The notes beneath the pieces are model-generated. The model had not been told where the DNA came from. It ran no database searches and was given only the letters and a program-made list of their open reading frames with translations. Both the position numbers and the translations under genes were made by a program. From Lineus longissimus (Eukaryota > Nemertea > Pilidiophora > Heteronemertea > Lineidae), in contig NC_088326.1 of assembly GCF_910592395.1 (NCBI RefSeq), forward strand, positions 3,975,001-4,039,000: 64,000 bases of DNA, in the 5' to 3' direction. Shown piece by piece: positions 3,001 through 53,000 of this stretch; position 1 is the stretch's first letter, and each line of letters begins with the position of its first letter.

Positions 3001-6000
3001 TCAAGTATCATTAGTTCATCGTCTATTCATTTGAACGGCAGGTTTAGAAGGAAGGCAATAATTATGTCTCATAAGAGACCACACACTTTTAGAACATAAA
3101 ATTGGAAGCTGAAGTCTTTGAAAGAATTCTGAAAATTTCCATTTTAAACCACCACAAACTAAACATTGAATGTGATTTCAACTGCTTCTGTATTCTGTAC
3201 CAAGCTAAGCAGTTAATAGATAGTCGCAACACCAAACCAACTGCTGCGGCCAAAATAAGGCACAATGGGTGAGGTCAAATATTGAATTTAACTAAGTGTT
3301 AACCCCAAGGTTTAACTAGGAGTTCCATATAAACCCCAGGAATTGACCGCTTGCTGTGAGTTGAGTCAATTCGTAGTCAATTCTATTTAACACTCGGTAC
3401 ACCCCAAGATTAACACCTCGATGACACTGGGATAACTCTGGTTTTCCCTTCAACCCAGGCAATCCTTTGGGGTTTAGAAAAATGCAACGTGTGACCACTT
3501 TGGAACTTGGAGTCTTTGAAAGAATTCTGAAAATTTATATTCTAAAACATCTCAAACTGAACATTAAATGTGATTTCAACTGCTTCCGTATTCTGCACCA
3601 ACCTAAGCAGTTAAATAGCTGCAACACCAAACTAAACACTGCAGCCAAAATAAGGCGGATTGTATTATATATATAGAAGACGACATTACATTGCTGCTAA
3701 GGTGTATTGGAATACTTTCCACATGTTGCCTGGGAAAGGCAGAGCGTCTCATAAAATGACAAAATGACAAAATAGAGAGACTGGCATAAACCAGGGCATC
3801 TCAAAATACTGTAAAACGTGAAATCTTCACAAGCATTTTATCATTTTGCCGACACTCTGTCAAAGGCAAACTTAAAAAGCATGTTACTTTCAACTGTATT
3901 GCATTAACCATTAAAGTTTGGCTACAATGCAATATTTAGTCTACCACCAATTGAAATTGAGTCAATTCACCAACTTTAGTGTGAAAACTTCAACTGTATT
4001 GCATTCACTATTAAGTTTTGGCAGCAGATACAATATTCAGTCTACCGCCAATTCATCAACTTTCAAGTTTGAAGGAATTTCATGGTTTACACAGTAAGGC
4101 CAAACTAAGGCTAAAAATTCTAAATCCCGAACCTGCTCTTCTTTTTAGAAAGTGAAGAAGAGACTAATGTTCTGCATCAAGTCGTCAGTGTTTTGTTGAA
4201 GTAACAAATCAACAAATTGATTGTCAATTTCACCACTTGGACAAAACATCAACAAAGCCTTTATTGATGCTTGGTTATCAACCAACTGGGAGTTTAATTT
4301 CAGACCCCCCTCCCCCCCCCCCCCAACCTATACAGGCTTATATCATCAGTGTATTTTGAGACAAGGAATGATAAGAATTTCTTTTGTAGCTTATTGCTTA
4401 TAGACGTGGAAGTCCAAACTATAAAATACCATTGGATTCCTAACTACAAAATGCTAGCGGGATCAAAACTACAATGAAATACTACTGGAGTCCAAACTAT
4501 GAAATAGTACCGCCCAACTAATGGAACATTGTTGTAAAACCTGTGTGAAGTTCTATCGGAACGGCAGACATGGTACATACAAACATTTTGCCGCTTACTA
4601 CTTTCATACTACTTATCACCAGTAACAAAATATCGACAAAAATACAGAAAATATAAGATATATAAGATTACAAAATTGCAGAACTCCATGTTCCATTATA
4701 ACTCCATGATTCTAACACCTCTAACTAAACATTAAATGTGATTTCGACTGTCTGTATTCTGTACTAACCAGAGCAGTTGTAGTTGCAACACCAAAACCAA
4801 ACGCAATAATGTTTTTGAAACTATTGCTTATAAATGTGCAACTACCAACTATCAAATAATATCCAGGCTTGAAAATACTACCAGATCCAAACTACAAAAT
4901 ACAACCCCCAACTAATGAAGCATCTTTGTTGAACTTGTGTGAGGTTCCAACAAAATGGCTGACATGATACATACATACATTGGGGGTTTAATTTCAGACC
5001 CCATCCCCCGATACTATACAGGGTTATGTCATCTGTGTATTTTGAGACAAGGGATAAGAACAATGTTTTTGTAGCTTATTGCTTATCGATGTGGAAGTCA
5101 AATCTACATAATACCATTTGAATCTTAACTGTGAAATACTGCTGGAGTCTAAACTATGATATACCACTGCCCAACTAATTTGAACTGTGTGAAGTTTCAA
5201 CAAAAAACATCAGGCATGACACATACATACATTTTGCAGCTTACTACTTTTATATATCATCATAATAAGAATATTGATAAATACACAATATTTACAAAAT
5301 ACAAAAAATTTCAAAGTTACAAGATACCTCCAGGCGTTCATGTCAATTTCTATTCTAAAACAACTCAGACTAAACATTAAATGTGATTTCGACTGCTTTC
5401 GCATTCAGTACCAAACGAAGCTGAACACCCAAAACAAACTGCAATATTGTTCTTGAAGCTAGTTGCTTATAAAAGTGCAAGTCCAAACTATCAAATACTA
5501 CCCCCAACTAATGAAGCATCTTTGTAGAACCTGTGTGAAATTCCAACCAAACTCATGACATAATACATACATGCATTTTGCAGCTTACTATGTTCATACT
5601 GCATATCACCAATAACGAAAATATTGACTAATACAGAACATACAAAATACATGTACAGGAAATTACAAAATTACAGATTACTTCCCGTTTGGTATCAATT
5701 TCTGTTCTAAAACACCTCACTAAACATTAAATGTGATTTCGACTGTCTGTATTCTGTACTAACCAGAGCAGTTATAGTTGCAACACCAAAACCAAACGCA
5801 ATAATGTTTCTGAAACTATTGCTTATAAATGTGCAACTCCTAAAGATCAAATACTGTCCAGGCTTGAAAATACTACCAGGTCCAAACTACAAAATACAAC
5901 CCCCAACTAATGAAGCATCTTTGTAGAACTTGTGTGAAGTTCCAACAAAATGGCTGACATGATACATACATACATTGGGGGTTTAATTTCAGACCCCTCC

Positions 6001-9000: not shown

Positions 9001-12000
9001 TAACCCTTGACGTCATGGTGCTGATAATGATTTTTTTCCGACGTCACGTCGATGATATATGGAAATGACGTTACGTCACCGCTGTCTTTTCCTGCCTCAG
9101 ATCGACAACTTAGTTAAAATAGGCCACTCTTGATTATCTGATCTCAATTCTGGGTCACAGGCCCAGATGGGTATTTATAGTAACACGATAGGTGGCGTAT
9201 TTGCAGAAAGAATCTTGACTCTCTGTCAGATATAATTAATTTTCTTAATTAAAGATGGGTCTTTAATGAAACAGTTGTTTGTAGTCTTTTCTTGTTTATA
9301 TATATGCCAACACATATGAGTCACACTTTCTTGGTACAGCGGGCCTAGTGCCCTATATTGGTGTCTGAAGTTAATTAAATTTTGAGTGTAATGAGTCATT
9401 TAATTAGTAAAGTTTGTCCTCATTTTGGCAGAAAATATTTAGTGTTAGTGATAGCTGGGATACTATCCTCAGTGCAAGAAGTGAGATTTTCACCGGACAG
9501 TTATTTTAATAGGATCTATGGCCTGACAAAAACCACGTGTCCACGAAGGTGTGCCGTTAACCCTTTTTTGTGAATTATCTGCATTCTTTTATTTTCTGAA
9601 TGGAATTTCAAATGGATTTCTGATATTTAGTTTGCTGGGTTTATTCAGATCCCTTTAGGATACTATAAAAGGTATGGAGGGGCCAACTGAGGCCCTTAGG
9701 GTTCACCATAGTTATATTCAAAAGTTATGCCGTATTTGTTGTGAACTTGTTCAGAGTAAAAAGGAACGAAAAGATCGTAAGCATGCATCGTGACATGCAC
9801 CATCGTGACATGCACCTTGAGAAAGTCCGACATAATTGAATTCTATGATATTGATATTACCCTTGACTCCCCTGATACCCATTCTCCCTTCATATGCAGA
9901 AAATGTGTTAACAAAATTGTAAGAGATTTGAAACGTGATGATATAGTAACAAAATATGTGTGTTTCCGAAAAGAATGCAAAGTGAAAGACAGATAATTTT
10001 GGCTCCCCCATGCAGGTAATTGCAATGTTTGCCACCATTTTAACCAGATGACAAACCCTAAGTTCAGGAGACAGGCCAAAGGTGGTTGGCTACGACAACT
10101 TCCTTTTAATATTCGTGATTCGGACATATTTGAAAATTTCTGGGACAGTGATAGGATTATGGCACCAGAAAATTCTGAATTAGATGATTCCCAGGAAATG
10201 TACACCTGTCCAATATGTAAAGATATATTTTCAACCTACACTGTTGTTACAAAGTGCCACCATTGTTATTGTTCTACGTGTCTGTCGTCTCTTTTCATTA
10301 GTCAAGAAAGTGATGAGATTCAATGTCCAGTGTGCCAGGAAACTGTTTTGTTCAGGGAAGTCTCAAAACCTCCCCAACTATTTTTTACTCAACTTCTGCG
10401 TTTGAAAATAAAGTGCAAAGACTGTGGGCAACGACGTCCATATACCAATGTGTTTGGTAAGCATTCGTGTGACACTAGTAAAGACCAAAGTGTGGACAAT
10501 GAAGCCAAAAATGATGATGATGGTGATGGTAATGATGATGATGATACTTTAATGGATATGTCTCTCAACACTGATCTCAACCAGTCAAAAACATTTCGTA
10601 CCAGTACTCCAGCAAAGCCACCAAAGGTTGACATGTGCATTCAAACCACACCCAGTAAATTACTCGCATCTCTATCGGAACCACTTAAACAAGACGAGGA
10701 TAAAGTTTTAACGAATATGGTGAAGAGGAAAATTGAAACATCTGGCGATGCATCTTACATTGAATGCAAGACAGGAGGACGGGTAGGAACCAATTTTAAA
10801 TTAACTTCCCATAACATTATTATTGTCATTCACTTTTTATATAGTTTTGTTCACTATTCTGTGTGCTTATTGCCTGTTTTACTTATAGCCAGTAAAGTTA
10901 TGTGTGGTACCCAAGGCAAGAGTTTCTTCAACAGTGGCATGCGCAACAACAGTACGGAAAAGGAGCTTTGGCAACAGAACGTTTAAAAAGATGTATGTTC
11001 GGGTCCACAAGAGCATCAACAAGTACGCAACTAACGAAGGAACTCAAACGATGTGACAGGAAAGAGAGACAAGAAAGACAAAAAGGCTAAGAGACAATCA
11101 TCAAAATCAACAAAGTAGAATCAACTTCAATCAGGGCCTTTTTGTTTCACATCAATATTATATTATTGCTTTTATAATTCATGAACTGCATCTTGCCTTA
11201 TTGATATCATTTCCTGTAATTGTATCCTTGAATATTGTTGCATGTATCTGCATTTTCATTCCTGAAATTTGAATTTTTGTTGTGTGCCACGCCCACCTCA
11301 ACCCCTTAATTAGGGTGGCACAAGAGGGGTTAGATACCTTATGTGGCTCACACTGCCAATCAAAATTAACTTACACCTTGTCGATTGCTTTAGATGTGTT
11401 TGAATCAAGTGTAGTTGCGTTAGGACCAGTGCAGTATCTTTTCAGTTAGACCCCTATCTGGGATCCTATACCTGCAAACCGAATAACTGTCCGGTAATGC
11501 GGCCCGTTTTATATGTTAGGATTACCCCCAAATTAGACGACAAACAAGTTTTCATGATGGTGAATGAGGACAGACTTAATTAATTGGCTATTGATTAAAC
11601 AGTACTTGATAGCAGAAACTGTCCTAAGTAGGACACAGCATCCCCATTGTTATTCCTTATCTGTGGTCCGATTTTCTTGAAACAAACACTGACACAGACA
11701 GATTGGAATGTCAGGAATCTATTCCAGGAAGAAAACTGAGCATAATGTGTAAATATAGCCTGCTATAGCCCACTTTACAACCGGGAATCAGTTCTATTTT
11801 TGCTGTGACCCAGATCACCGAGGAGATGGAATTCCCTATGAACTAGTTTATCTGGGTCAGTCTAGGCCTCGCTGATAAAGTGGCCTATTAAACTAAGTTG
11901 TCGCTGTAAAACCAGCGGTGACGTCTTAATAGTGGGGTGACGTGAACTGGGATCTTGGCGTCCACGGGAAAGGTCTTTCGTGCCAGGGCTTGTGCGTACT

Positions 12001-15000
12001 GAAAATAACGAATAATGTGTTTTTTCTACTATCTAAGAGTTGAAATATAATAGGAAAAGTATCGAACATATTGATAACAATGGTTTACGAATGAACCAAC
12101 AGGAGAACAAACATACTGCAATAAATCTCAATGGTCTTCTAAGTCGATTACACAATCTTTACAATTGTGCTGCTGTGTCTGATCCTATGTCATAGGACTT
12201 GAAATTATACTAAATTTTCCATTTGGTAATTTTGCCACTGATAATATCGACAGCAAAGTATGTCCAACTCTCGTCTGTGACTTCCATTTCTCGCAAAAGA
12301 GCATCACAATCTACCACCCTCTCATTTGCTTCTGTTGGTTTCATTTCAGTCTCTTTGTTGTGTCTTCCCTTGCCACACAGTCTTCTCACAAAGGCTTTCA
12401 TTATTCTTGCCACTTTTGCGCTCTTAGCAACATCTAGTTTTAGTCCCTCCAAGACATTGTAATCTGGTGCGAAGAACATGGGGATGAAACCCTTGTGGAG
12501 GGCATCATCAAGGTCATCATACACCTTACACACCATCTCACCAAGACTCTGCTCAGACTTCAGGAAATCTTCAACATTCTTCAGAAACATGGACTTCAGA
12601 TGGTAACTGCTGATATAGTCATCGACATTCTTTGGTAGGCCTTCACCTTCAGCGATCATGATGCGGCTTGCATCTGGGTTCCTCAAACATTTGGCAGTTA
12701 CGTACACATTCTTGATCCTGTCCTCAAGGCGATTGAAATGTTCAACCTCGAGATGTGAAAACGATACCCGCCAGAGCTCATCTAATTGTTCATTGGTCAA
12801 CAGCTCTGCTAATTTACTCTTCCTATGAGGTGGTTTAGGTACCAGAAGGTAGCCTCTCTTCTTCAGTTCGGTATGGTCCATCAACCAAGTTCTTTCAGTG
12901 AATTCCTTTTGCCAGCCATCAATGTGAACACAAGGCACAGCATCAACAGACACAAGCAATTTGTTTGATTCATCTTCCCAGTTGAGTAAAACAGGAGTAC
13001 AAGCTTTACGATCTGTGTCTTTCGGAAAACTTAGTGAGCCTTCTATCTCTTGTTTGTGTACTCCATCAACATTAGGATTTGCTTCTAGAGCAGCATGTAA
13101 ATTAGTGTAAAACCCGCTATGAAAACTTTTACTCCCGAACTGATTGTTGATTCCTGAGTAGTGCATATACCCTGAATTTAATGGGATGAGAGGAACATAA
13201 CTCTCCTGAGATAAATGTAGAAATAGAATATCCATTTCATTAGGGAGGCCAACCCTACATCCCTCTGCAACACTTCCACACAGCTTATGTTCAGAATCAG
13301 ATAACGTTTCAAGTGAATCCATAAATTTCAAAATCGCATCTCTGATCTTCTTTGCAGTAAAATGAGAGATTGCCAATACATTTCCTATCCCTGGGATGCG
13401 ACTGAAGTTTTCTATTGGCATGTTGAATATCTCTGCTGGGCTAATTGAGAAGACTTTAAGGTAATTAATGGAATTAGAAAATGGTAGTAAGCTGTCAAAT
13501 TGATGTCTTCCAAGGCTAGCACTGACATTTGTTTCTGTTTCCTTCAGTAACACTAGCCTCACAATATCACTAGATCCATTCAAGCAACTCAACTGAAGGG
13601 GTTTAATTACAGATTCTTTTGAAGTCCGTGTCTTTGAATCAACCACCAGGTCTAACAGCAGTCTAGCAGCAAATGTGTACCCAAGCTTGGCACATTGACA
13701 TAATGCATCTGTTGAGTAAGATATCTGTTTAGTATTTATCCAACATGCTACCATATCGTTATCTTTGAGAAGTAGTGAATAATCAAAAGGATTTAGCACA
13801 CTTGTACATTTTGGGTTAACACCCTGCAGGACCAGGTACTGGACAAGGTCAGTATTGGATAATAGAGATGCCAGGTGCATCACATTCAGCACATTCTTAT
13901 CACTGGCATTCGGGTCAGCCCCTGAATTGATAAGATGCTTGACCATATCTAGCTTACCCTCCAATGACGAGAGCATTATTGGGGTCTGACCTGTGACATT
14001 TCTACAATTGATATCAAAGCCCTGACTGAGGAGGTAATCAACAAGATCAGGATTTGATGACCGAGATGCCCAGTGCATCACATTCTCCCCGTTCTTATCA
14101 CTGGCATTCAGGTCAGCCCCTGAATTGATAAGATGTTTGACCATATCTAACTTACCCTCCCTTGCCGAGAGCAATATTGGGGTCTGACCTGTGACATTTC
14201 TACAATTGACATCAAAGCCCTGACTTAGGAGATAATCAACAAGATTAGGATTTGATGACCGAGATGCCAGGTGCATCACATTCTCCCCGTCCTTATCACT
14301 GGCATTCAGGTTAGCCCCTGAATTGATAAGATGCTTGACCATATCTAACTTACCCTGCAATGCCGAGAGCAATATTGGGGTCTGACCTGTGACATTTCTA
14401 CAATTGATATCAAAGCCCTGACTAAGGAGGTAATCAACAAGATCAGGATTTGATGACCGAGATGCCCGGTGCATCACATTCTCCCCGTTCTTATCACTGG
14501 CATTCAGGTCAGCCCCTGAATTGATAAGATGTTTGACCATATCTAACTTACCCTCCCTTGCCGAGAGCAATATTGGGGTCTGACCTGTGACATTTCTACA
14601 ATTGACATCAAAGCCCTGACTTAGGAGATAATCAACAAGATTAGGATTTGATGACCGAGATGCCAGGTGCATCACATTCTCCCCGTCCTTATCACTGGCA
14701 TTCAGGTTAGCCCCTGAATTGATAAGATGCTTGACCATATCTAGCTTACCCTGCAATGCCGAGAGCAATATTGGGGTCTGACCTGTGACATTTCTACAAT
14801 TGATATCAAAGCCCTGACTAAGGAGGTAATCAACAAGATCAGGATTTGATGACCGAGATGCCCGGTGCATCACATTCTCCCCGTTCTTATCACTGGCATT
14901 CAGGTCAGCCCCTGAATTGATAAGATGTTTGACCATATCTAACTTATCCTCCCTTCCCGAGAGCAATATTGGGGTCTGACCTGTGACATTTCTACAATTG

Positions 15001-18000
15001 ACATCAAAGCCCTGACTTAGGAGATAATCAACAAGATTAGGATTTGATGACCGAGATGCCAGGTGCATCACATTCTCCCCGTCCTTATCACTGGCATTCA
15101 GGTTAGCCCCTGAATTCATAAGATGCTTGACCATATCTAACTTACCCTGCAATGCCGAGAGCAATATTGGGGTCTGACCTGTGACATTTCTACAATTGAT
15201 ATCAAAGCCCTGACTAAGGAGGTAATCAACAAGATCAGGATTTGATGACCGAGATGCCCGGTGCATCACATTCTCCCCATTCTTATCACTGGCATTCAGG
15301 TCAGCCCCTGAATTGATAAGATGCTTGACCATATCTAGCTTACCCTCCCTTGCCGAGAGCAATATTGGGGTCTGACCTGTGACATTTCTACAATTGATAT
15401 CAAAGCCCTGACTAAGGAGGTAATCAACAAGATTAGGATTTGATGACCGAGATGCCAGGTGCATCACATTCTCCCCGTCCTTATCACTGGCATTCAGGTT
15501 AGCCCCTGAATTGATAAGATGCTTGACCATATCTAACTTACCCTGCAATGCCGAGAGCAATATTGGGGTCTGACCTGTGACATTTCTACAATTGATATCA
15601 AAGCCCTGACTAAGGAGGTAATCAACAAGATCAGGATTTGATGACCGAGATGCCCGGTGCATCACATTCTCCCCGTTCTTATCACTGGCATTCAGGTCAG
15701 CCCCTGAATTGATAAGATGTTTGACCATATCTAACTTATCCTCCCTTGCCGAGAGCAATATTGGGGTCTGACCTGTGACATTTCTACAATTGACATCAAA
15801 GCCCTGACTAAGGAGGTAATCAACAAGATCAGGATTTGATGACCGAGATGCCAGGTGCATCACATTCTCCCCGTCCTTATCACTGGCATTCAGGTTAGCC
15901 CCTGAATTGATAAGATGCTTGACCATATTCAACTCACCCTGCAATGCCGAGAGCAATATTGGGGTCTGACCTGTGACATTTCTACAATTGATATCAAAGC
16001 CCTGACTAAGGAGATAATCAACAAGATCAGGATTTGATGACCGAGATGCCCGGTGCATCACATTCTCCCCGTTCTTATCACTGGCATTCAGGTCAGCCCC
16101 TGAATTGATAAGATGTTTGACCATATCTAGCTTACCCTCCCTTGCCGAGAGCAATATTGGGGTCTGACCTGTGACATTTCTACAATTGATATCAAAGCCC
16201 TGACTAAGGAGGTAATCAACAAGATCAGGATTTGATGGCCGAGATGCCAGGTGCATCACATTCTCCCCGTTCTTATCACTGGCATTCAGGTCAGCCCCTG
16301 AATTGATAAGATGCTTGACCATATCTAACTCACCCTGCAATGCCGAGAGCAATATTGGGGTCTGACCTTTGACATTTCTACAATTGATATCAAAGCCCTG
16401 ACTAAGGAGGTAATCAACAAGATTAGGATTTGATGACCGAGATGCCCGGTGCATCACATTCTCCCCATTCTTATCACTGGCATTCAGGTTAGCCCCTGAA
16501 TTGATAAGATGCTTGACCATATCTAACTTACCCTGCAATGCCGAGAGCAATATTGGGGTCTGACCTGTGACATTTCTACAATTGATATCAAAGCCCTGAC
16601 TAAGGAGGTAATCAACAAGATCAGGATTTGATGACCGAGATGCCCGGTGCATCACATTCTCCCCGTTCTTATCACTGGCATTCAGGTCAGCCCCTGAATT
16701 GATAAGATGTTTGACCATATCTAACTCACCCTGCAATGCCGAGAGCAATATTGGGGTCTGACCTGTGACATTTCTACAATTGATATCAAAGCCCTGACTA
16801 AGGAGGTAATCAACAAGATCAGGATTTGATGACCGAGATGCCAGGTGCATCACATTCTCCCCGTCCTTATCACTGGCATTCAGGTTAGCCCCTGAATTGA
16901 TAAGATGCTTGACCATATCTAACTTACCCTGCAATGCCGAGAGCAATATTGGGGTCTGACCTGTGACATTTCTACAATTGATATCAAAGCCCTGACTAAG
17001 GAGGTAATCAACAAGATCAGGATTTGATGACCGAGATGCCCGGTGCATCACATTCTCCCCGTTCTTATCACTGGCATTCAGGTCAGCCCCTGAATTGATA
17101 AGATGTTTGACCATATCTAACTCACCCTGCAATGCCGAGAGCAATATTGGGGTCTGACCTGTGACATTTCTACAATTGATATCAAAGCCCTGACTAAGGA
17201 GGTAATCAACAAGATCAGGATTTGATGACCGAGATGCCAGGTGCATCACATTCTCCCCGTTCTTATCACTGGCATTCAGGTCAGCCCCTGAATTGATAAG
17301 ATGCTTGACCATATCTAACTCACCCTGCAATGCCGAGAGCAATATTGGGGTCTGACCTTTGACATTTCTACAATTGATATCAAAGCCCTGACTAAGGAGG
17401 TAATCAACAAGATTAGGATTTGATGACCGAGATGCCCGGTGCATCACATTCTCCCCATTCTTATCACTGGCATTCAGGTTAGCCCCTGAATTGATAAGAT
17501 GCTTGACCATATCTAACTTACCCTGCAATGCCGAGAGCAATATTGGGGTCTGACCTGTGACATTTCTACAATTGATATCAAAGCCCTGACTAAGGAGGTA
17601 ATCAACAAGATCAGGATTTGATGACCGAGATGCCCGGTGCATCACATTCTCCCCGTTCTTATCACTGGCATTCAGGTCAGCCCCTGAATTGATAAGATGT
17701 TTGACCATATCTAACTCACCCTGCAATGCCGAGAGCAATATTGGGGTCTGACCTGTGACATTTCTACAATTGATATCAAAGCCCTGACTAAGGAGGTAAT
17801 CAACAAGATCAGGATTTGATGACCGAGATGCCCGGTGCATCACATTCTCCCCGTTCTTATCACTGGCATTCAGGTCAGCCCCTGAATTGATAAGATGTTT
17901 GACCATATCTAACTTACCCTGCAATGCCGAGAGCAATATTGGGGTCTGACCTGTGACATTTCTACAATTGATATCAAAGCCCTGACTAAGGAGGTAATCA

Positions 18001-21000
18001 ACAAGATCAGGATTTGATGACCGAGATGCCCGGTGCATCACATTCTCCCCGTTCTTATCACTGGCATTCAGGTCAGCCCCTGAATTGATAAGATGTTTGA
18101 CCATATCTAACTCACCCTGCAATGCCGAGAGCAATATTGGGGTCTGACCTGTGACATTTCTACAATTGATATCAAAGCCCTGACTAAGGAGGTAATCAAC
18201 AAGATTAGGATTTGATGACCGAGATGCCAGGTGCATCACATTCTCCCCGTCCTTATCACTGGCATTCAGGTTAGCCCCTGAATTGATAAGATGCTTGACC
18301 ATATCTAACTTACCCTGCAATGCCGAGAGCAATATTGGGGTCTGACCTGTGACATTTCTACAATTGATATCAAAGCCCTGACTAAGGAGGTAATCAACAA
18401 GATCAGGATTTGATGACCGAGATGCCCGGTGCATCACATTCTCCCCGTTCTTATCACTGGCATTCAGGTCAGCCCCTGAATTGATAAGATGTTTGACCAT
18501 ATCTAACTTACCCTCCCTTGCCGAGAGCAATATTGGGGTCTGACCTGTGACATTTCTACAATTGATATCAAAGCCCTGACTAAGGAGGTAATCAACAAGA
18601 TCAGGATTTGATGACCGAGATGCCCGGTGCATCACATTCTCCCCATTCTTATCACTGGCATTCAGGTCAGCCCCTGAATTGATAAGATGCTTGACCATAT
18701 TCAACTCACCCTGCAATGCCGAGAGCAATATTGGGGTCTGACCTGTGACATTTCTACAATTGATATCAAAGCCCTGCTTAAGGAGATAATCAACAAGATC
18801 AGGATTTGATGACCGAGATGCCCGGTGCATCACATTCTCCCCGTTCTTATCACTGGCATTCAGGTCAGCCCCTGAATTGATAAGATGTTTGACCATATCT
18901 AACTTACCCTCCCTTGCCGAGAGCAATATTGGGGTCTGACCTGTGACATTTCTACAATTGACATCAAAGCCCTGACTAAGGAGATAATCAACAAGATTAG
19001 GATTTGATGACCGAGATGCCAGGTGCATCACATTCTCCCCGTCCTTATCACTGGCATTCAGGTTAGCCCCTGAATTGATAAGATGCTTGACCATATCTAA
19101 CTTACCCTGCAATGCCGAGAGCAATATTGGGGTCTGACCTGTGACATTTCTACAATTGATATCAAAGCCCTGACTAAGGAGATAATCAACAAGATCAGGA
19201 TTTGATGACCGAGATGCCCGGTGCATCACATTCTCCCCGTTCTTATCACTGGCATTCAGGTCAGCCCCTGAATTGATAAGATGTTTGACCATATCTAACT
19301 TACCCTCCCTTGCCGAGAGCAATATTGGGGTCTGACCTGTGACATTTCTACAATTGATATCAAAGCCCTGACTAAGGAGGTAATCAACAAGATCAGGATT
19401 TGATGACCGAGATGCCCGGTGCATCACATTCTCCCCGTTCTTATCACTGGCATTCAGGTCAGCCCCTGAATTGATAAGATGTTTGACCATATCTAACTTA
19501 CCCTCCCTTGCCGAGAGCAATATTGGGGTCTTACCTGTGACATTTCTACAATTGACATCAAAGCCCTGACTAAGGAGATAATCAACAAGATTAGGATTTG
19601 ATGACCGAGATGCCAGGTGCATCACATTCTCCCCGTCCTTATCACTGGCATTCAGGTTAGCCCCTGAATTGATAAGATGCTTGACCATATCTAACTTACC
19701 CTGCAATGCCGAGAGCAATATTGGGGTCTGACCTGTGACATTTCTACAATTGATATCAAAGCCCTGACTAAGGAGGTAATCAACAAGATCAGGATTTGAT
19801 GACCGAGATGCCCGGTGCATCACATTCTCCCCGTTCTTATCACTGGCAATCAGGTCAGCCCCTGAATTGATAAGATGTTTGACCATATCTAACTCACCCT
19901 GCAATGCCGAGAGCAATATTGGGGTCTGACCTGTGACATTTCTACAATTGATATCAAAGCCCTGACTAAGGAGGTAATCAACAAGATCAGGATTTGATGA
20001 CCGAGATGCCCGGTGCATCACATTCTCCCCGTTCTTATCACTGGCATTCAGGTCAGCCCCTGAATTGATAAGATGTTTGACCATATCTAACTTACCCTCC
20101 CTTGCCGAGAGCAATATTGGGGTCTGACCTGTGACATTTCTACAATTGATATCAAAGCCCTGACTAAGGAGGTAATCAACAAGATCAGGATTTGATGACC
20201 GAGATGCCCGGTGCATCACATTCTCCCCATTCTTATCACTGGCATTCAGGTCAGCCCCTGAATTGATAAGATGCTTGACCATATTCAACTCACCCTGCAA
20301 TGTCGAGAGCAATATTGGGGTCTGACCTGTGACATTTCTACAATTGATATCAAAGCCCTGACTAAGGAGATAATCAACAAGATCAGGATTTGATGACCGA
20401 GATGCCCGGTGCATCACATTCTCCCCGTTCTTATCACTGGCATTCAGGTCAGCCCCTGAATTGATAAGATGTTTGACCATATCTAACTTACCCTCCCTTG
20501 CCGAGAGCAATATTGGGGTCTGACCTGTGACATTTCTACAATTGATATCAAAGCCCTGACTAAGGAGGTAATCAACAAGATCAGGATTTGATGACCGAGA
20601 TGCTTTGTGCATCACATTCTCCCCATTCTTATCACTGGCATTCAGGTCAGCCCCTGAATTGATAAGATGCTTGACCATATTCAACTCACCCTGCAATGCC
20701 GAGAGCAATATTGGGGTCTGACCTGTGACATTTCTACAATTGATATCAAAGCCCTGACTAAGGAGATAATCAACAAGATCAGGATTTGATGACCGAGATG
20801 CCCGGTGCATCACATTCTCCCCGTTCTTATCACTGGCATTCAGGTCAGCCCCTGAATTGATAAGATGTTTGACCATATCTAACTTACCCTCCCTTGCCGA
20901 GAGCAATATTGGGGTCTGACCTGTGACATTTCTACAATTGACATCAAAGCCCTGACTAAGGAGATAATCAACAAGATTAGGATTTGATGACCGAGATGCC

Positions 21001-24000
21001 AGGTGCATCACATTCTCCCCGTCCTTATCACTGGCATTCAGGTTAGCCCCTGAATTGATAAGATGCTTGACCATATCTAGCTTACCCTCCCTTGCCGAGA
21101 GCAATATTGGGGTCTTACCTGTGACATTTCTACAATTGACATCAAAACCCTGACTGAGGAGGTAATCAACAAGATCAGGATTTGATGACCGAGATGCCAG
21201 GTGCATCACATTCTCCCCGTTCTTATCACTGGCATTCAGGTCAGCCCCTGAATTGATAAGATGCTTGACCATATCTAACTTACCCTCCAATGCCGAGAGC
21301 AATATTGGGGTCAAACCTGTGACATTTCTACAATTGACATCAAAGCCCTGACTAAGGAGGTAATCAACAAGATCAGGATTTGATGACCGAGATGCCAGGT
21401 GCATCACATTCTCCCCGTTCTTATCACTGGCATTCAGGTCAGCCCCTGAATTGATAAGATGATTGACCATATCTAACTTACCATTGAATGCCGAGAGCAA
21501 TATTGGGGTCTGACCTGTGACATTTCTACAATTGATATCAAAGCCCTGACTAAGGAGGTAATCAACAAGATCAGGATTTGATGACCGAGATGCTTTGTGC
21601 ATCACATTCTCCCCGTTCTTATCACTGGCATTCAGGTCAGCCCCTGAATAGACAAGAGATTTCACTCTACCTAGGTTACCCTGCGATGCTGAGAGAAATA
21701 ACTGGATTTTACGTGTGTCAGTTCCAAAAATGATATCAATGCTCCGACTAAGAAAAACAACCAAGTTGTCCACAAGACCGGGATGGGATGATTGTGATGC
21801 CATTTGCATTAATGTTAGTTGTTGGCCTTATAGTCTTCTATGTCAAATCATATGCTGTATGGGTTAAAAATGTACTATCTAAAAAGATTTTGAATTGAGT
21901 GATGCGTGCTTCTCCCTTTATTAGGCTCATGTAACTTTCAAAAAATGAAGTTTCGGCTGCTAGAAGGGCTAGAAGTGCTTCTCTTTGAAATCATGAGTTC
22001 TCTTCTACCTCACGCAATTATTGCTGAAGACTTTTCAAAAGCATTTGTTTAACTGAAAAAAAGTACTGAAAGGGTCGAGCCGTTCAAATAAATATAGTCT
22101 AGAATTCCTTGGTTCAGCTGATATTAACCCACCATTTGCAGAATTAGGCTATAAACTATAAGAAAGTCATCGCTAAATGCTGGTTACAACAAATAAGCAG
22201 ACATGTTAACACAAATAACATTTCACATTTGGTAGTGGTACCTGATGAAAAAATATTGCATTACCTGTAAAGTATCTATCTCAAGTGTGAGACTTGACGA
22301 CTCTTCCGTGATCTAGCCCCAAAATGGTATGTCAGTCTGTAATGTTTCTTTCTGTTCTTGTTGCAAGTCCCCTTGTCCAGTCTTCTCTTCTTCTTATGAT
22401 TCACAATGGCACAGCAAAGTTCAAACGTAATCCAATGAAATCCTGGTCTCTGAATAGAAACACATCCAAAAAGGAACTGGTTTGTTTGGCCACAGTAGTG
22501 CTGCTTTTCTGGTCCTGGGCAGGAACTGGTTGGGTCAGCCACAGTAGTGCTGCTATGCTGGTCCTGGGTAGGAACTGGTTTGGTAAGCTACAGTTGTGCT
22601 GCTTTGCTGGTCCTGGGCAAGATGATGTTGGGCAGCAACAGTTGTGCTGCTATACTGGTCCTGGGCAGGAACTGGTTGGGTCAGCCACAATTGTGCTGCT
22701 TTGCTGGTCCCGGGCAGGAACTGGTTGGGTCAGCCACAGATGTGCTGCTATACTGGTCCTGGGCACGAACTGGTTTGGTAAGCTACAGTTGTGCTGCTTT
22801 GCTGGTCCTGGGTAGGAACTGGTTTGGTCAACCGCAGATGTTCTGCTATACTGGTTCTGGGCAGGAACTGGTTGAGTCAGCCACAGATGTGCTGCTATGC
22901 TGGTCCTGGGTAGGAACTGGTTTGGTCAACCGCAGATGTGCTGCTATAGTGGTCCTGGGCACGAACTGGTTGGCACAGCCACAGATGTGCTGCTATGCTG
23001 GTCCTGGGTAGGAACTGGTTGGGTCAGCCACAGTTGTGCTGCTTTGCTGGTCCTGGGCAAGAACTGGTTTGTTCTCCTTCACTGATACTGCTATGCTGGT
23101 CCTGGGCAGGAACTGGTTGGGTCAACCAAGTTTGTGCTGCGGTTTGGTGGTCCAGGGTAGGTGAGCCAAATTGTGCTGCTATGCTGGTCCTTCATCGGAA
23201 CTGGTTAGCTGAGTCCAAGTTTTTTGTTAATCCCTGATCGTCAGCAGAGCCGTTCAATGTCTAGCCCTGTATGATCTTTTCATGACATTTGTCTTAAATT
23301 TGTCTTAAATTTGGCAAAAGTAGCGAAATGCGTATCATTTGAGAAAGTTGGGTCGAGTTCGACTTGGCCAGTTACTGGTTCTCATAACCTTAATTCCAAA
23401 TCAGCTCGGGTCCTGGTCATTTATAGGCGCTGTTCTGATATGTGAACTTGACATGCCAGCCTTGATTGATTGATCTTTAATGTCAATGAGTCCAAGTAGA
23501 GTGTTTTGAATCTGGTCTGATTGTTGATTCGGCCATGGTGTACTCAAACTTGGCTAGTCCTCTTCCCCAAATAGTAAAATTCACTGTATTTACCTCGTAT
23601 TCAGAGGACATGGAAAGAATTTTAGATGGTAAAACCACAAATGGCTCATCAGGGTGGAGCTTATTCCGATTCTGTAGCATAAAGCGACTAGGAGTATCAC
23701 TCCCCCTGGATAGTGTAGCGGTAAAAGGGCTTATAATATTTGTCACCGTATAAACTTCGCAACTCTGAACTCGAACCCAAAGACTAAACCAACTAAGATA
23801 TATATTTACATTATTTATTATCCACGTCCCTCTAACCTCATATCTACAACCGACACTAAAATATTTACAAAAATAAAGCGCACAATAAAATATCAACAAG
23901 AGATCATATAAAAGAATCTTACCATGCTGTAAGGTCAAGGGTGAAGTCAATTAAAAATGCTCTGGCGCTTTTCAAGAGAAATATCTTGTTTAGCTACAGA

Positions 24001-27104: not shown

Positions 27105-30100
27105 CGTCGTCCGTTAGCAGGGCACGTTTCGTAACTGTTAGAGCTATTGAGTTGAAACTTGGTACACATGTACCCTTATGTAATGACACCTTGGAGACCA
27201 AGTTTCGGTCCGATTCGTTTCATGGTTTGGCCACCAGGGGGCCAAACGTTAAAAGTGAAAATATGCAATATCTCCCTTAATAGTAGTCGGGAAATTTTGA
27301 AAAAAATATGGTAGGTACTTCTAGCAAAGGTGCATCATATATCCTCCGGGTTTTTGATTTGACCTCCTTTTCAAGGTCACAGAGGTCAAATGGTGTAAAT
27401 TGGCCGTTAGGATGTAACGATGGCACGTTTCTAAACTGCAATGACTATTGATACCAAATTTGGTACACATTTACCCCTTAGTCAGGTGATCTCAGGGACC
27501 GAAGTTTGGTCCAATATGATTCACCACTTGACCACCAGGGGGCAAAATCCAAAAACCTTAAAAATGTGATTATTCCTTAACTTCTTGCCCGATTGCCACC
27601 AATTTGATATCATGGGTATATCTAACCACCATACAGTATATGTCATACAGGTTTTTAATTTGACCTTCTTGTCAAGGTCACAGAGGTCAAATGGCGTAAA
27701 TTCGCTGTCAGGCCGTAACTATGGCACGTTTCTTAACTGCAATGACTATTGATCACAAATTAAGTACACATGTACCCCTTGGTCAGGTGATCTTAGGTAC
27801 CGAAGTTTGGTGCGATCTGATTTGCCGTTTGGCCTCCAGGGAGGGGGCCAAATCCTAAATTCTTCAAAATGCCATTATTCCTAGTAATGACTTGCCCGAT
27901 TGGCACCAATTTTATATCATAGGTACATCTAATTCTAACAACCATTCAATGTGTCACCCGGGTCTTCTTTGATTTGACCTACTTTTCAAGGTCACAGAGG
28001 ACGAATGTACTGTAAATGGCCATTTTGGGGAAATTGTAATTGCTTGGACCTACATCAAACCTAACACTACATGACACAATACCATGCTCTTTATCCATCT
28101 TTCCTCCACATGAGGTGAGCACAATGGCCCTGGCCATTTCATTATTTTCATTTTTAGTGCACAGATAAACTGAAGTGAATGTTATGTTCCCCGCCTTATC
28201 TTTCTCTTCATAAATCACAAACCAAATGTCAACAATCGGCAGACAATTATTTCTTTAAAATACTGGTATTGATTTTCTACAAAGTGACATAAGTTATTTT
28301 CATGCAAGTTAAAACCACTCCTTGTGAACAAATTTGGAGTTTGATTTCAAACAGACGACCCAGATGCCAGATTTTTCCAGCTGAACTGGCACTTTCTGGC
28401 TCTGCCATTTACCAAAATACCGCCAAACTCCAGCCCTGACATTTGCTGGAACTTTCAGCTATTCCCAACCTCATGGCAAGGAAAAATCGTTGGGAATTAG
28501 CTGGAAAATCCTGGCTTTTGCCGACAATTTCCAGTCGAATTTCGCAGGGGCAGTGTTACCTGGCTTCAGAATTGGGTTTGGGGAGATGATGAAGAAGGAA
28601 TTGATGATGTACACTGTGCTGTACTGAAATAAAGTTTTGATAGTTTCATGCTTATATTTTAAATTACCTTGTCACAGGTATGAGCTTTTAGTGAACATGT
28701 TCTTGTACAATTTTGAAATATAGGCATGAAACTATAAAAAACTTTATTTCAGTACGATTTACATCATCAGTTTGCTCCTATACCACCTGGAATGTTTGAA
28801 TTTTCTACCTGCCATAACTTGAAGACTAGTTCGATATTTATCACTGTGTTTGTTATCTTATGCCCTATTATTTTTTCCCTAAGACAAAAGTGTTACAGGT
28901 GATCTTTAATCTCTTAATCTGTGGATTCCTCAGCTAAAGGCCGTTAGGTCATCAGTCCCTCACCCTCCCACTGACTATTTGCACAGAACAGAGTTTATTC
29001 TACATTACATTCAATGGAGAATGCTGTTGATGTAACCTAAAAGGTCATCAGTCCCTCACCCTCTCACTGACTATATGCACAGAAGAGAGTTTATTCTGCA
29101 TTACATTCAATGGAGAATGCTGTTGATGTAACTTAAAAGGTCATCAGTCTCTCACCCTCTCACTGACTATATGCACAGAAGAGAGTTTATTCTACATTAC
29201 ATTCAATGGAGAATGCTGTTGATGTAACTTAAAAGGTCATCAGTCCCTCACCCTCTCACTGACTATATGCACAGAAGAGAGTTTATTCTACATTACATTC
29301 AATGGAGAATGCTGTTGATGTAACCTAAAAGGTCATCAGTCCCTCACCCTCTCACTAACTATATGCACAGAAGAGCGTTTATTCTGCATTACATTCAATG
29401 GAGAATGCTGTTGATGTAACCTAAAAGGTCATCAGTCCCTCACCCTCTCACTGACTATATGCACAGAAGAGCGTTTATTCTGCATTACATTCAATGGAGA
29501 ATGCTGTTGATGTAACCTAAAAGGTCATCAGTCCCTCACCCTCTCACTGACTATATGCACAGAAGAGAGTTTATTCTGCATTACATTCAATGGAGAATGC
29601 TGTTGATGTACCCCTAAAAGGTCATCAGTCCCGCACCCTCTCACTGACTATATGCACAGAAGAGAGTTTATTCTACATTACATTCAATGGAGAATGTTGT
29701 TGATGTCACCTAAAAGGTCGTCAGTCCCTCACCCTCTCACTGACTATATGCACAGAAGAGAGTTTATTCTACATTACATTCAATGGAGAATGCTGTTGAT
29801 GTAACCTAAATGGTCATCAGTCCCTCACCCTCTCACTGACTATATGCACAGAAGAGAGTTTATTCTGCATTACATTCAATGGAGAATGCTGTTGATGTAA
29901 CCTAAAAGGTCATCAGTCCCTCATCCTCCCACTGACTATATGCACAGAAGAGAGTTTATTCTGCATTACATTCAATGGAGAATGCTGTTGATGTAACCTA
30001 AAAGGTCATCTGTCCCTCACCCTCTCACTGACTATATGCACAGAAGAGAGTTTATTCTGCATTACATTCAATGGAGAATGCTGTTGATGTAACCTAAAAG

Positions 30101-33100
30101 GTCATCAGTCCCTCACCCTCTCACTGACTATATGCACAGAAGAGAGTTTATTCTGCATTACATTCAATGGAGAATGCTGTTGATGTAACCTAAAAGGTCA
30201 TCAGTCCCTCACCCTCTCACTGACTATATGCACAGAAGAGAGTTTATTCTACATTACATTCCATGGAGAATGCTGTTGATGTAACCTAAATGGTCATCAG
30301 TCCCTCACCCTCTCACTGACTATATGCACAGAAGAGAGTTTATTCTGCATTACATTCAATGAAGAATGCTGTTGATGTAACATAAATGTCAAAGTTGACT
30401 GTGTCTAAAGTGAAAATCTTCCCCTTGACACAAAAGCACTGATATCTCCGGAGAGGAAGGTCCTATAAACACACAGTTTCCACAATCAGAAAGCAAGGAA
30501 GTTCCCACACATTTATTTATCATGGCTATAATACACCTTTCTCTTGAAAAAAAGACTTCTTAACGTGGACACCAACTATTGAGACGATGACTCAAAGGGT
30601 TAAACTAGTTAAGTTTGACAATTTCTGGGGGAGTTTTGATAACTGTGGCTGAACCTGCTGGTGAAATTTTATTGAACACCGAATCTAGTTGCCTGAAATA
30701 AATTCCTAGTATAACAGTACAATCACTCTATTAAGGACACCCTCGGGACTGACAAGTGTTGTCCTTGATAGAGAGGTCTCCTGATTATAGAGGTCAAGTT
30801 GAATGGAAACTACCAATTTGTGACCAAAACTAGTGTCCTTAATAGAGGGGTTGTCCTTAAACGAGAGGTGTCCCCTAAGGGAGTTACCACTGTACTTTGT
30901 TAAAGGGACACTATAGGTAGCACCTAGGCAGGCAAGATAAGTTACACAAAGTTGCCAATAGGGGTCTTGCCCATCTCACAGTAGGTCTTGTACAAGGAAT
31001 ATATATAGTGCTGAAACCCATTCCCCTTATCGTGCTTTCTAGTCGCCTGAAGATGGCCAATTTAACCTCCTTCCTCCTGCCTATAGTCCACCTTTGACTG
31101 CTTAATTAATGACATTGAAAATGATAGTTCTTGAAACAAAAATGATCGTGTCTACTTAATATCTGTGTGACCTACACAAATACAAATACTGTACTCCACG
31201 GGGATATTTTTCATGATGATTCATGAGTGTTTGTTCTGTGATAATCTGATTGGAAATCGACACTTTTTCTTTTTTACAGATACACCCGTCCTAGTTGAAT
31301 GCTGAAGGGCCATTTATTGGCCGCTAGAATACTCGCGGCTTGTCGGTGCAAATGCACTGACAGTCTCTGTCCACAAAGGGCATATTGATCTTCAAAACAC
31401 AATTTACTTTGGAAATCTTTTACTTCGTGTTTAAAAGACACATTATAGGTAATGTCTGTGACGTCACTGACTGGCAGAATTCCTCCTTTGTCTTGACGGA
31501 CAATACTAGTTCAGACATTTTACTCTCTTAAAATTAATCACAGTACAGTACAGTAAATCTGAGTTGACCTAAACTCCCCTTCCAGCTGGTTATCCCTGCT
31601 CTCGAGCGAGACAATTGCCATCCTGGGAACGATTTAGGCCTGATGATCACTCTTTGCAAATAGTCAGCATAATGCGATTCTGAATTTCGGGACTTTTGGG
31701 GAGGTTGGGGTGCTCAAAATTGTGTTATTTTCGTTTTTCTAAGGGGAAAAAAGTTGCATAGGTAGCGTTATAGGACGGTTCTATGTTGATTCAGAATGCT
31801 CTGGTCTTTGGGCAGTATACTTAACATCCAGCGCTATTGCTTCCGTAGATGCGTGTTGTCTCGAAGCTGAGCAATGTCAATACCTTGAGGGTCAAGATGT
31901 TGGGTAGCTCTTCTAAAAGACATTATGTAGTTGTATCTGATTGGTTTTTTTGGGGTCTGTAGACAGAGTGTTATTCCAGTCGTGAGGATATGAAGAGATA
32001 TGTCCTATAAGCGAAGGTGAAATTTAGAAAATTGTCATTTTCAAGGGTTTTCCTGTTAGTGTAAAGCTAATTACACTTTTCTGCAGTCTCCTTCAAAATC
32101 ATTTTCATTTTCATTTTGAATGCGCAGATAACCTGAAGTGTTTTGCTGTCGTACGAATGATGACCTATCCTATGATTCACAAACCGGTCCTCAACATCGA
32201 GGGCCCATTTCTTGATATCAGAAATAGACCATATTTAAATTTCATTTCACGGATAACAGAATTGATTATTGTATACCATAAAGCTGTGAACAAACTCTAA
32301 TTTCACTTATCTTAGACTTGTACATCAATAACTATGAAATCGACACAAGGGCCTAACATTAGTTTATCACAATCAGACATCTTGGTGTTGCCTATCCATT
32401 GTTTATCAAAATTGGACAATTTGAATGGCATTGAATGACGATGTACATAGTTTGGGGCCTGAATTGAATATTCAAAACGGTCTTACATTAGTGAAACTAG
32501 AGTATGTCTTTATCACTTTGATTGCATCCAGGAATTTGTGTAACCGTCCCCGGCATTTCAGCAGGATATCTTTTTTTATGGAATATGTTGTTAATGGCAT
32601 TGGTCACCGCTGTTTCGTCTTTGTGTCCTAGAGCAAGGCACTTTACCCTACTTGCTTATCTCCGAGTACCTGGCTGGCAGTGTTTGCACACTATGAATGT
32701 TAGTCCTGAGTGCCGAATAGCTGCAGCTTGGACCTGTGATACTCCTAGAAAGTAGAGCTTGAACCAGGAATGTACAGGCCAATAGCTAGGGGTAATAGTG
32801 TGAAGCACTTTGAGCGAATAAAACCAGTTGGATTTAATAGTGCTATGTAAGGGTTGTGGTCATGTTCTAGCGAAATATTTAGTTTTCGTTCTAACCATGT
32901 GTTTATTTCATTACAGGACATCTTTGGTGCTCTTACAGTGACCCCCTTCAGTTCTGGGTACTCCCTTGGCAGTAGTAACTGGATCAGTTCTAACCATGTG
33001 TTTATTTCATTACAGGACATCTTTGGTGCCCTTATTGTGACCCCCTTCAGTTCCAGGTACTCCCTTGGCAGTAGTAACTGGATCAGTTCTAACCATGTGT

Positions 33101-50000: not shown

Positions 50001-53000
50001 GGGGAAAAAATTATTTTATGCAATATTTATCGAGTTGTGGGCCCTACATTGTGCCTGTGTTTTCGTTGCCTAATTGTCAATTTCATGCAATCTTTACAAT
50101 ACACAGGCCCTACAATGTCTATTTGTAGCCTAATTCATTTCCAATATCATCCAGTATTTGTCGAATCTTATCATAGGCCCAGCATTGTGAACACTTTTGT
50201 TGTGAAACCATCATATTTTCCATGACACTAACATGACATCCCAAATGGCTTCTGACCTGGCGAATCCATCCCTCCTAGTATAAGGTGCAGAAATAAGACC
50301 TTCTTGCTGAAACCCTCGCATTTGGCTTCAGTATTATGACATCCGAGGTGGCCAATCTCCAATGACACTAATGTGACACCTGCCATGGCTTCTGAACATT
50401 CTCCCTTGCTATGACAAACCCTAGTACTGGAGAGTACCCAACATTTTCTCTCAAACATCTACATAATTCAAAAAAGGGTTTTATGAGCCTCATTTTCAAT
50501 TGAACCAAACTGAGCCCCCAGAAAAAACTTTCTCACTTTTTCTCTGACTTCGATGGTGGATGTATGCTGATGTACAGATTGTCGGATCTCTCCCGTAGGG
50601 TCATGGAGTTATTACGTTCTAATCCAACTTGTCCCGCTCATTGTGCTCTGTGCAAGATGGACAGTTCTTCGTAAGTTCTTGATTTCGGTAGAAAGTGGCC
50701 AGAGGAACTGTGGTCTCAGGAATCCCTTCATTCCTGCGATTGGCTGATATTTCACAATCAGCTGCATTTCGAGGCTTTGTAAAAAAATGGATGAATTTTA
50801 GTTATGAAATGGATGAATTTTAGTAAGAAATGGGTGAATTTTAAAAGAAATGGGGAAATTTTTGAAGAAATGGGTGAATTTCAGTCAAGAAATTGGTGAT
50901 TTTCAGTAAGTGAGTGAATTTCAGTACAGAAATGTTTAAATTTCTGTTAAGAAGTGGATGGATTTTACAAATCTGTGAAAAAATGAAACTGTTTTTTATT
51001 CTTACACAACTCTACTTATTTCTGTTTCCTACAATCATTGTCCATCGCTCTCAAATAACCCTGATCTATGAGTTTCAGAAGAGCAAGCTTCCATCAAGAA
51101 CCCGATTTCATAATGTTAAAAACTATCAACCTCACTCTAAATTTGTAATTTTTGCCTCTGCAGAAACTCATCTGAATCCACAATGAAATTCGACGCATTC
51201 GACGAGGAATTCCGTCTCATCGAAGACATGCTGTACAAAAATGGCGGTCCCCAGAGTAACTCTACAACAAGCACAGACGAACCGGCCAACTTCAGTAAAG
51301 TCTCCGTAAACAGTGACGATTTTAATGCCAGTTTGAATTGTACGACTTCCACAAGGCACAATGACGCCCAACCTCACGTGGCCACATCGCAGTCGAGTCC
51401 AGACTTGAAGAAACCCGTCGCCTGCTCTCAAACGACTAAACCGGGGAGCCTAGAGGTCATTCGACACAATCCGTTATTCGCCTCGCTGCAGACGGAACTC
51501 GTGAAGGAATGTACGCCTACGAATCACACGCTACCGTTTTCACTCCTGGGGACGAGTATGCCACAACCTCCTGCAGAGACGAACACGACAACCGTCAACG
51601 AACAAGTCGCTCAACAGGACGCCGCGTTACGCCAGGAATTTGCTACAGTCAGGGAACTGGAGAACGCCAAAGTGAAAACTTTGATGGAGTTGTACACGCA
51701 TGAATCGGAAAAACTTGAAAACGATCGGTATCGGGCTCTGTGCGCGAATATTTATTACTTGTCGTGTAAGAAATCTGTGAACAATTATTACGATTGCGAA
51801 CGTTTGGTCTTGATTGAACGAGTTTGGAAAAGTCTGACGCTGTTCAAGCAGTCTGTCCGTCACGATTCTGGTATGGTTGACTCGAATGACACTGAAAATG
51901 AGTCGTGTTTGTCTGATAATGTGGCGGACAATTCTGGCGTTTCTGGCGCCAGTAAAGTTGACAACTCCAAAGAGATGAAATTCGCAAACTCTGAGATCAA
52001 AGCAGAAGAGTGCGATTCATCGTGGGAGAAGTCTGACGACATTGGTGCGTTCTTCAACAATAGTTCCGACTCTGACAACTCCAGCCAATCGGATTGCAGT
52101 TCTCAGATGAAGAAAGCCCGCCATGATGATGGTTCTGCTCGTAAAACGATCAGCTCCGAAGCGACGGAGATAATGCAAGAGTGGTACAACCAGAATTTCG
52201 ATCATCCGTACCCGTCCGATGAAACGGTGAAAGACTTGGCCAAAAGAGGGAGGATCACCGTGACCCAGGTCAAGAAGTGGTTTGCTAACAAACGCGTCCG
52301 GTCGTTCAATACGCTTTCATTCAACGGGTCCGTCCATCCAGCGAGGCTGCGCAGAGAGAAGAGACAACGCGTTGCTACGTCCCCAGAATCCGACGATCAG
52401 TCGAATCGCACGAAAGTCGGCTCGGAGAGAAGCTTGGATGCTGCGGCGGTGAACGTCCTGAGTTCGTGGTATTACAGTCATATGGAGCATCCCTATCCTT
52501 GCCAGGAGGAGAAAATATATCTTTCCAACGTCGCCAATATCTCCATCCAGCAGCTCAACTCATGGTTCAACAACAAACGTAACCGTACCGGGAACACGCG
52601 CCGCCTGGTGCCGACTTACTTCACTAAGCTCTTCGACAAGAACCCGGCCGCCGCCATGGAGGTGTTGCAACGCAAGCGCAAGATGCCGCAGTCCGCTTAT
52701 GAAGTCGAACAATTCAAACAGCCATGTTTCGTGCCTACAACGATGTCATATCCGCCGATGTATCCATCGCCGTCACCCGTCTACATGGGACACGGATTAC
52801 CCATGATGCAACATCAATTCGGTCACTTATGAACGCTGTGATTTTGGAGTGTCTTGACTCCTTGTGCTATTGTCGTAGTAGGAAATCGATGAGGGCTGAA
52901 AGGTGCATTTTGAAACGTCCTGTGGGATGCAACCTTCTGCTCAGAATGTTATTTAAGACTAAATTGCAGGTTCTTAGGAAAGAAAATTTATTGTGAAAAT

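Follow-up and report, generated by a model that had tools for sequence, protein, structure and literature searches.

A family of ankyrin-fused cGAS-like receptors in the nemertean Lineus longissimus with arrays that vary in length and at putative binding-face positions

Why would a cGAS-like nucleotidyltransferase be preceded by a tandem array of some 80 ankyrin repeats? This question is raised by a single open reading frame at 12210..21809 of a 64,000-nucleotide stretch from the nemertean Lineus longissimus (contig NC_088326.1, positions 3,975,001 to 4,039,000; hereafter the window), which encodes an ankyrin-fused cGAS-like receptor (ANK-cGLR) of 3199 residues. Our analysis places this gene in a large family of the same genome, in which array length differs widely between close relatives and nonsynonymous differences between repeat units concentrate at the positions of the ankyrin binding face. 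These observations suggest an answer in which the array may be the sensing part of a receptor and a putative cyclic-nucleotide synthase its output.

The gene lies on the minus strand, on which its 9600 bases form one open frame from ATG to stop; the plus-strand reading of the same interval is full of stops, and six codons separate the ATG from an in-frame stop upstream of it. The coding sequence as read is one exon, with an intron in the 5' untranslated part being possible. The N-terminus (residues 1–119; 21453..21809), read directly from the sequence, starts by eye with an apparent degenerate ankyrin unit. It is followed, from residue 120 to about 2690, by 39 units of 66 residues with exact spacing, each comprising two ankyrin repeats, and consistent with this arrangement Tandem Repeats Finder (TRF) reports a period of 198 bp with 39.7 copies at 95% match (13843..21700), and a Pfam scan of the protein gives 78 Ank stretches. 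Pfam and PDB matches place the nucleotidyltransferase (NTase) and its helical Mab-21_C domain at residues ~2780–3130 (12420..13472; limits approximate), followed by a C-terminal tail (residues ~3131–3199; 12213..12419). An earlier note, made from the sequence alone, had described a 3199-residue protein with about 80 ankyrin repeats encoded by one exon; the frame and the repeat count are borne out, the strand, which it did not give, is added, and the one-exon claim holds for the coding sequence as read. According to the available part of the assembly paper (PMC8593623), the genome was sequenced at 79-fold PacBio coverage after shearing to 12–20 kb, so that single reads can span the 7.9-kb array; judged from this published design, gross misassembly of the array is unlikely.

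The identity of the C-terminal part is supported at several levels. When the C-terminal 546 residues were searched alone, they matched both the Mab-21 NTase family (PF03281, E 3.1e-6) and Mab-21_C (PF20266, E 4.2e-7), and of these two families only Mab-21_C (E 6e-6) was reported in the scan of the whole protein. The best PDB match of the window enzyme is cGAS-like receptor 1 (8gjw, E 5.3e-6); the same chain comes first when a 24-member family profile is used (E 7.3e-12), followed by chains named cGAS from 1.1e-9. Both the NTase core and the helical bundle at the C-terminus are covered by the homology, with profile positions 83–390 aligning to 8gjw. Sequence and alignment place the catalytic residues G2845-S2846 (13272..13277), E2858-M-D2860 with the first two active-site acidic residues (13230..13238) and the third acidic residue D2956 (12942..12944), all of them present in the window enzyme. 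In an alignment of 34 rows, 28 of which are ANK-cGLR loci (the window and 27 others), all four features (G-S, E, D, D) are found in 25 of the 28, the exceptions being L035, L036 and L038. Most of the length of the NTase core and the helical domain can be aligned to PDB 4k8v, which we take to be a vertebrate cGAS (profile positions 75–395). The window enzyme differs from it in being acidic, in being preceded by the long ankyrin array and in the zinc ribbon; relative to what we take to be the ribbon residues of cGAS (H-CC-C), the window–cGAS alignment contains no H-CC counterpart and a single aligned cysteine. The active-site motif given by Li et al. 2023, h[QT]GS-X8-20-[DE]h[DE]h-X50-90-h[DE]h, is too strict in its literal form to discriminate: a regular expression of it matches 0 of the 34 sequences, Mab21-like proteins included, the first h is N in cGAS itself as aligned, and in the window enzyme Q/T is replaced by C and the spacer given as 50–90 residues is 93 residues long. 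The earlier note's assignment to the Mab21/cGAS family, its full catalytic set at the residue numbers given and its loss of the zinc ribbon are therefore supported, and the gene can be regarded as a cGAS-like receptor (cGLR), a putative cyclic-nucleotide synthase that retains its catalytic residues.

The window gene is one of many. A search with its 440-residue enzyme part against the genome (391 Mb in 30 contigs; the window's contig, C20 in our numbering, is chromosome 19 of 13.63 Mb in the part of PMC8593623 at hand) returned at least 97 matches, which were merged by hand into at least 75 places; all family counts from this search are lower bounds. Open frames of at least 600 residues are found at 69 of the 75 places, of at least 800 at 66, of at least 1500 at 22 and of at least 2000 at 11, the window frame being the longest among the matches listed. 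An internal stop occurs in one of the 69 (C15:1826793), and the other 68 are without. Because 69 of 75 enzyme-matching places lie in such frames, the window frame is not a product of chance, and the search for further ANK-cGLR genes that the earlier note had proposed thus yields about 70 long single-frame members. Pfam analysis of 27 family frames, chosen without the window, L017 and L019, detects ankyrin repeats in all 27 and the Mab-21 NTase and Mab-21_C domains in 23 each. Each of nine paralogues read at length forms a single frame and starts, by eye, with ankyrin-like sequence, two of them being incomplete at the 3' end of the stretch read. Six closely related copies on contigs C17 and C15 (L011–L016) have the enzyme separated from the final conserved residues by an in-frame 93-bp (31-residue) tandem repeat, which the window copy lacks. 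Such proteins are not restricted to this genome, since one of two metagenome proteins found among 6475 candidates in a homologue search, P0003 (720 residues), has ankyrin and Mab-21_C domains. Family clusters are somewhat overrepresented towards chromosome ends: of 38 clusters, 16 are no more than 2.5 Mb from an end, where 9.2 would be expected (p 0.012), and 8 are no more than 1 Mb from one, where 3.7 would be expected (p 0.027); both thresholds were of our own choosing, and the pattern is reported only as noticed. As a separate observation, the paralogue C17_10182 (L018, C17:10182274-10183554) ends in a hydrophobic stretch with a mean hydropathy of 2.03 over 19 residues, which may be a membrane tail anchor.

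Array length differs strikingly among close relatives. In the six C17/C15 sisters a 201-bp unit is repeated 19.3, 6.2, 2.5, 15.3, 17.3 and 16.2 times at 91–94% match, an approximately eightfold range, while the synonymous divergence (dS) of their enzymes is only 0.016–0.061, indicating that repeat number changes faster than the enzyme. Elsewhere in the family, one array consists of 35.6 copies of a 99-bp unit at 92%, and three more (L053–L055) consist of 34.7–52.7 copies of single-ankyrin 99-bp units at 86–91%; the array of L056 is the most diverged of those tested. High identity of tandem units together with variation of repeat number is thus found in this family, as in fungal NLRs. Within the window array, units two apart are more alike (0.9745) than neighbours (0.9567), as if two unit types alternated, and its proportion of nonsynonymous differences (pN) is the lowest among seven arrays compared.

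The distribution of the unit differences over the ankyrin fold is the central observation. We defined a face set of six of the 33 ankyrin positions (2, 3, 5, 13, 14 and 33), which we take to be those randomised in designed ankyrin repeat proteins (DARPins). The set was adopted after viewing the variable columns of the window array and the sister unit consensus; the arrays L053–L056 were fetched after the test had been fixed and serve as replicates. In the available parts of the DARPin papers, the randomised positions form a concave target-binding surface or paratope. Array sequence was obtained for 14 genes (the window, nine paralogues and the four later ones), of which 11 were tested with units taken at 50–65% identity to a reference unit; the other three had two units (C17_600) or too few similar ones (C17_10182 and C8_518). 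Nonsynonymous differences concentrate at the face set in all 11 arrays, with a share of 0.37–0.51 against an expected 0.18 (permutation p 0.0001–0.025). When the face set was slid through the 33 phases of the repeat, the true phase ranked first in 10 of the 11 arrays. By comparison, the outer helix (positions 18–26) makes up 27% of the positions and accounts for 8% of the diversity. The concentration of unit differences on the binding face is therefore firm.

The magnitude of the face differences is also informative. The ratio of face pN to the array-wide proportion of synonymous differences (pS) is 1.74 in the window array, 4.93, 2.49, 3.55, 2.50 and 3.67 in five C17/C15 arrays, 2.79 in C8, 1.85 in C5, 4.40 in an array of another C15 cluster and 6.72 in C12. 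It exceeds 1 in every array but L056 (10 of 11), and the bootstrap intervals of these ten also lie above 1, with the caveat that tandem units are not independent. The pN/pS of whole units reaches 3.14 in L055 and 2.11 in L054. The most variable positions of these natural units include most of what we assume to be the DARPin randomised set, and the inner-helix position 10, presumably outside that set, varies strongly too. The nemertean arrays differ from DARPins further in being natural, in having up to about 80 repeats and in being fused to an enzyme.

Over longer times the enzyme appears to be under constraint. Between the window copy and the six C17/C15 copies, the ratio of nonsynonymous to synonymous divergence (dN/dS) of the enzyme is 0.33–0.38 at dS 0.65–0.70, and against L018 it is 0.16 at a dS of 2.04, which is saturated. 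The genes were copied at the DNA level, because a minisatellite upstream of them was duplicated along with them. In the window, TRF and sister-gene comparison identify this element as 13.7 copies of a 49-bp unit (22472..23140, minus strand) ending 662 nt upstream of the ATG, and a related 50-bp array, about 71% homologous to it, lies 1.02–1.04 kb before the ATG in five sister genes. Genome DNA searches with the window array and a sister array gave 11 distinct places, with further copies possible, as this search skips very common words. Eight of the 11 precede an already identified ANK-cGLR frame in the same orientation, among them the frame with an internal stop at C15:1826793, and the remaining three (L050–L052) precede truncated or deleted copies within the 3.8–4.5 kb read, so that all 11 places found are 5' of a gene or gene remnant of one ANK-cGLR clade. 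A role of the minisatellite as promoter or 5' exon may be imagined from its position. In L051, a deletion copy, the upstream 50-bp repeat runs straight into the C-terminal 93-bp repeats. A retrogene origin of the window copy was also considered, prompted by the last 36 residues of close sisters matching as a separate piece; it was rejected, since in the sisters read this piece is in the same frame and split off by the in-frame 93-bp repeat, and the minisatellite was copied too.

A downstream partner was sought in the same genome, as the earlier note had proposed, and the search for STING yielded one exon, with a PF15009 score of 27.4 bits (30.1 bits on a 57-residue frame) and STING as its best PDB match (E 2.4e-5). 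The frames flanking this exon gave no STING match. STING_TM was not found in the genome search, in which no control matched either, so that its absence is not established. A second exon that looked STING-like by eye was dropped, as it gave only weak matches to an unrelated protein (E 0.63 and 0.66) and a shorter piece of it none.

Taken together, we give roughly even chances to the reading that these genes are cGLRs with a long ankyrin solenoid as the sensing part and a putative cyclic-nucleotide synthase as the output. The concave face of the array would bind a variable, probably protein, ligand; binding would order or cluster the enzyme, which would then make a cyclic nucleotide that is read by STING. 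Duplication, loss and exchange of units would allow new binding surfaces and lengths to arise quickly, with purifying selection holding the enzyme over longer times. In the case of the window copy, we infer from its acidic enzyme and homogenised array that recognition would proceed through the array, perhaps by avidity, so that its direct trigger might be a large or repetitive ligand and not nucleic acid. A more specific proposal, which we offer tentatively and put somewhat short of an even chance, is an animal receptor family with fungal-NLR-like specificity, in which germline copying, deletion and shuffling would act on near-identical ankyrin units, the changes being centred on the concave face, and a fast-changing protein ligand would be recognised by the array instead of the enzyme groove, with STING output. 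If true, the family would amount to a natural DARPin-like repertoire wired to a cGAS-type output.

The strongest competitor, which we consider rather unlikely, holds that the array is a neutral or mechanical scaffold providing length, oligomerisation or a spring, that it expanded by unequal exchange, and that the face positions are simply the least constrained. A number of observations do weigh against a sensing array, and most of them would suit such a scaffold. The window array is homogeneous, with a mean of 7.2 of 198 nucleotides differing between units and a pN/pS of 0.72–0.75, and would offer one repeated surface rather than many; overall diversifying selection in it was looked for and not found (pN/pS 0.72), and only a positional bias remains. 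The rapidly evolving repeat domain described in the earlier note thus fits repeat number and the sister arrays better than the sequence of the window array. The positional bias, too, is weak here: none of the other ten arrays has a larger permutation p (0.025), the true phase ranks second of 33 in the register control, and the test of distinct changes falls short of significance (binomial p 0.34, Fisher p 0.25). The suggestion in the same note that the array is a recognition surface accordingly fits the family, with its face bias in every array tested, better than the window copy itself. In the oldest-looking array, L056 (C20), face pN over array-wide pS is 0.96, and single-array tests of distinct changes fall below 0.05 in 1 of 11 arrays by the binomial and in 3 of 11 by the Fisher test. 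According to the available part of Persi 2016 (PMC5120217), repeats within a protein generally diverge fast, and strongly relaxed and positive selection between them is universal. Outside the array, one STING exon for about 70 receptors is a thin link. Distinct changes were also pooled over six arrays, with the C17/C15 clade represented by its array of lowest p and L056 not included; this gives 119 nonsynonymous to 13 synonymous changes at the face, against 203 to 76 at the other positions (Fisher p 2.5e-5), with an excess over the neutral fraction at p 0.0011. Taking each of the five C17/C15 arrays in turn gives Fisher p 1.1e-5 to 2.5e-5 and an excess p of 0.0011–0.0069 (0.0025–0.0069 for the other four representatives), and removing C8, which shares its unit type with C5, leaves Fisher p 5e-4. 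With L056 added, the contrast between face and rest stays (Fisher p 5e-7 to 1.2e-6) and the excess over neutral is not significant (p 0.07–0.16, or 0.30 without C8 too). What argues against a scaffold is that relaxation alone cannot lift pN above pS, yet face pN exceeds array-wide pS in all arrays except L056, and that without L056 the pooled excess holds for all five representatives. For the younger arrays, positive selection rather than relaxed constraint is therefore likely, as judged by counting and permutation tests that do not separate the two cleanly.

Two further explanations concern the enzyme and the fate of the window copy. The enzyme could sense nucleic acid itself in the manner of cGAS, with the array only localising it or binding a signalling partner, which we regard as improbable. 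Its cGAS-like sequence and catalytic set would fit this, as would the isoelectric points (pI) of 23 sister enzymes, which range from 5.51 to 8.93 with 3 of 23 above 8.5. However, the part of Li et al. 2023 (PMC9980059) available to us describes a pI above 8.5 for nucleic-acid-sensing cGLRs and proposes other ligands for acidic ones, and the window enzyme has a pI of 5.73 and a net charge of -10; binding-face variation between paralogues would also be unexpected in a localisation module. Alternatively, the window copy might be a decaying or inactive member with an intact frame and no product. Broken copies do exist in the family (L017 and L019 with stops, L050–L052 truncated in the stretches read), no AATAAA or ATTAAA is present in the 1.3 kb 3' of the window gene's stop, and the six recent C17/C15 copies show an enzyme dN/dS of 0.39–1.67, which may reflect loose constraint or even positive selection and, if constraint is indeed weak, also counts against the receptor reading. 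Set against decay are the 3199 open codons, the retained catalytic residues and the enzyme dN/dS of 0.33–0.38 between the window copy and its C17/C15 sisters, and we judge it very improbable.

The architecture as such is not new, because cGLRs fused to ankyrin repeats, for example in Stylophora pistillata, have been described by Li et al. 2023 (PMC9980059). As far as the available part of that paper goes, 87% of cGLRs are without an extra domain, 3 of 42 in S. pistillata carry appended domains (ankyrin repeats, death domains), some bivalves have more than 200 cGLRs, and testing was mainly with nucleic acids, leaving some active enzymes without a known ligand; we found no account of array evolution in it. 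The nemertean genes share with those ANK-cGLRs a Mab21/cGAS enzyme with its active-site motif fused to ankyrin repeats, and differ in comprising about 70 long single-frame genes with homogenised, face-varying arrays and a clade-specific upstream minisatellite. The closest parallel for the arrays is provided by fungal NLRs such as Podospora hnwd, for which Dyrka et al. 2014 (PMC4986451, in the part available) report near-identical ANK, TPR or WD repeats of varying number, positive selection and polymorphism on the concave inner-helix/hairpin face with one exception in the ANK case, and possible concerted evolution. Both systems thus combine highly identical tandem repeats, number variation and concave-face change. 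The fungal proteins, by comparison, are NOD/STAND receptors with other output domains, whereas the nemertean family is animal and has a cGAS-type synthase; homology of the outputs is not implied. What appears to be new, on present sequence evidence, is a nemertean ANK-cGLR family whose arrays expand, contract and differ on the binding face. The combination of homogenised, concave-face-varying repeats in cGLRs was not found in a literature search that was not exhaustive, and no paper on cGLRs in Nemertea was found in the small part of the matching literature covered, from which no absence is claimed. An array bearing the mark of ligand-facing change would offer a testable route to non-nucleic-acid sensing by cGLRs, and repeat shuffling of the kind seen in fungal NLRs may have evolved independently in a nucleotide-messenger pathway of an animal.

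The remainder of the window contains several other features. The ANK-cGLR gene is adjoined by an open frame of 312 residues with a RING finger (10048..10986, plus strand), and a 549-residue open frame with a Homeobox_KN homeodomain is located at 51183..52832 on the plus strand. Further minisatellites lie at 28946–30386 (96 bp × 15), 32888–34567 (99 bp × 17) and 55603–56333 (20 bp × 37), and the open reading frames listed over the latter two are probably by-products of the repeats.

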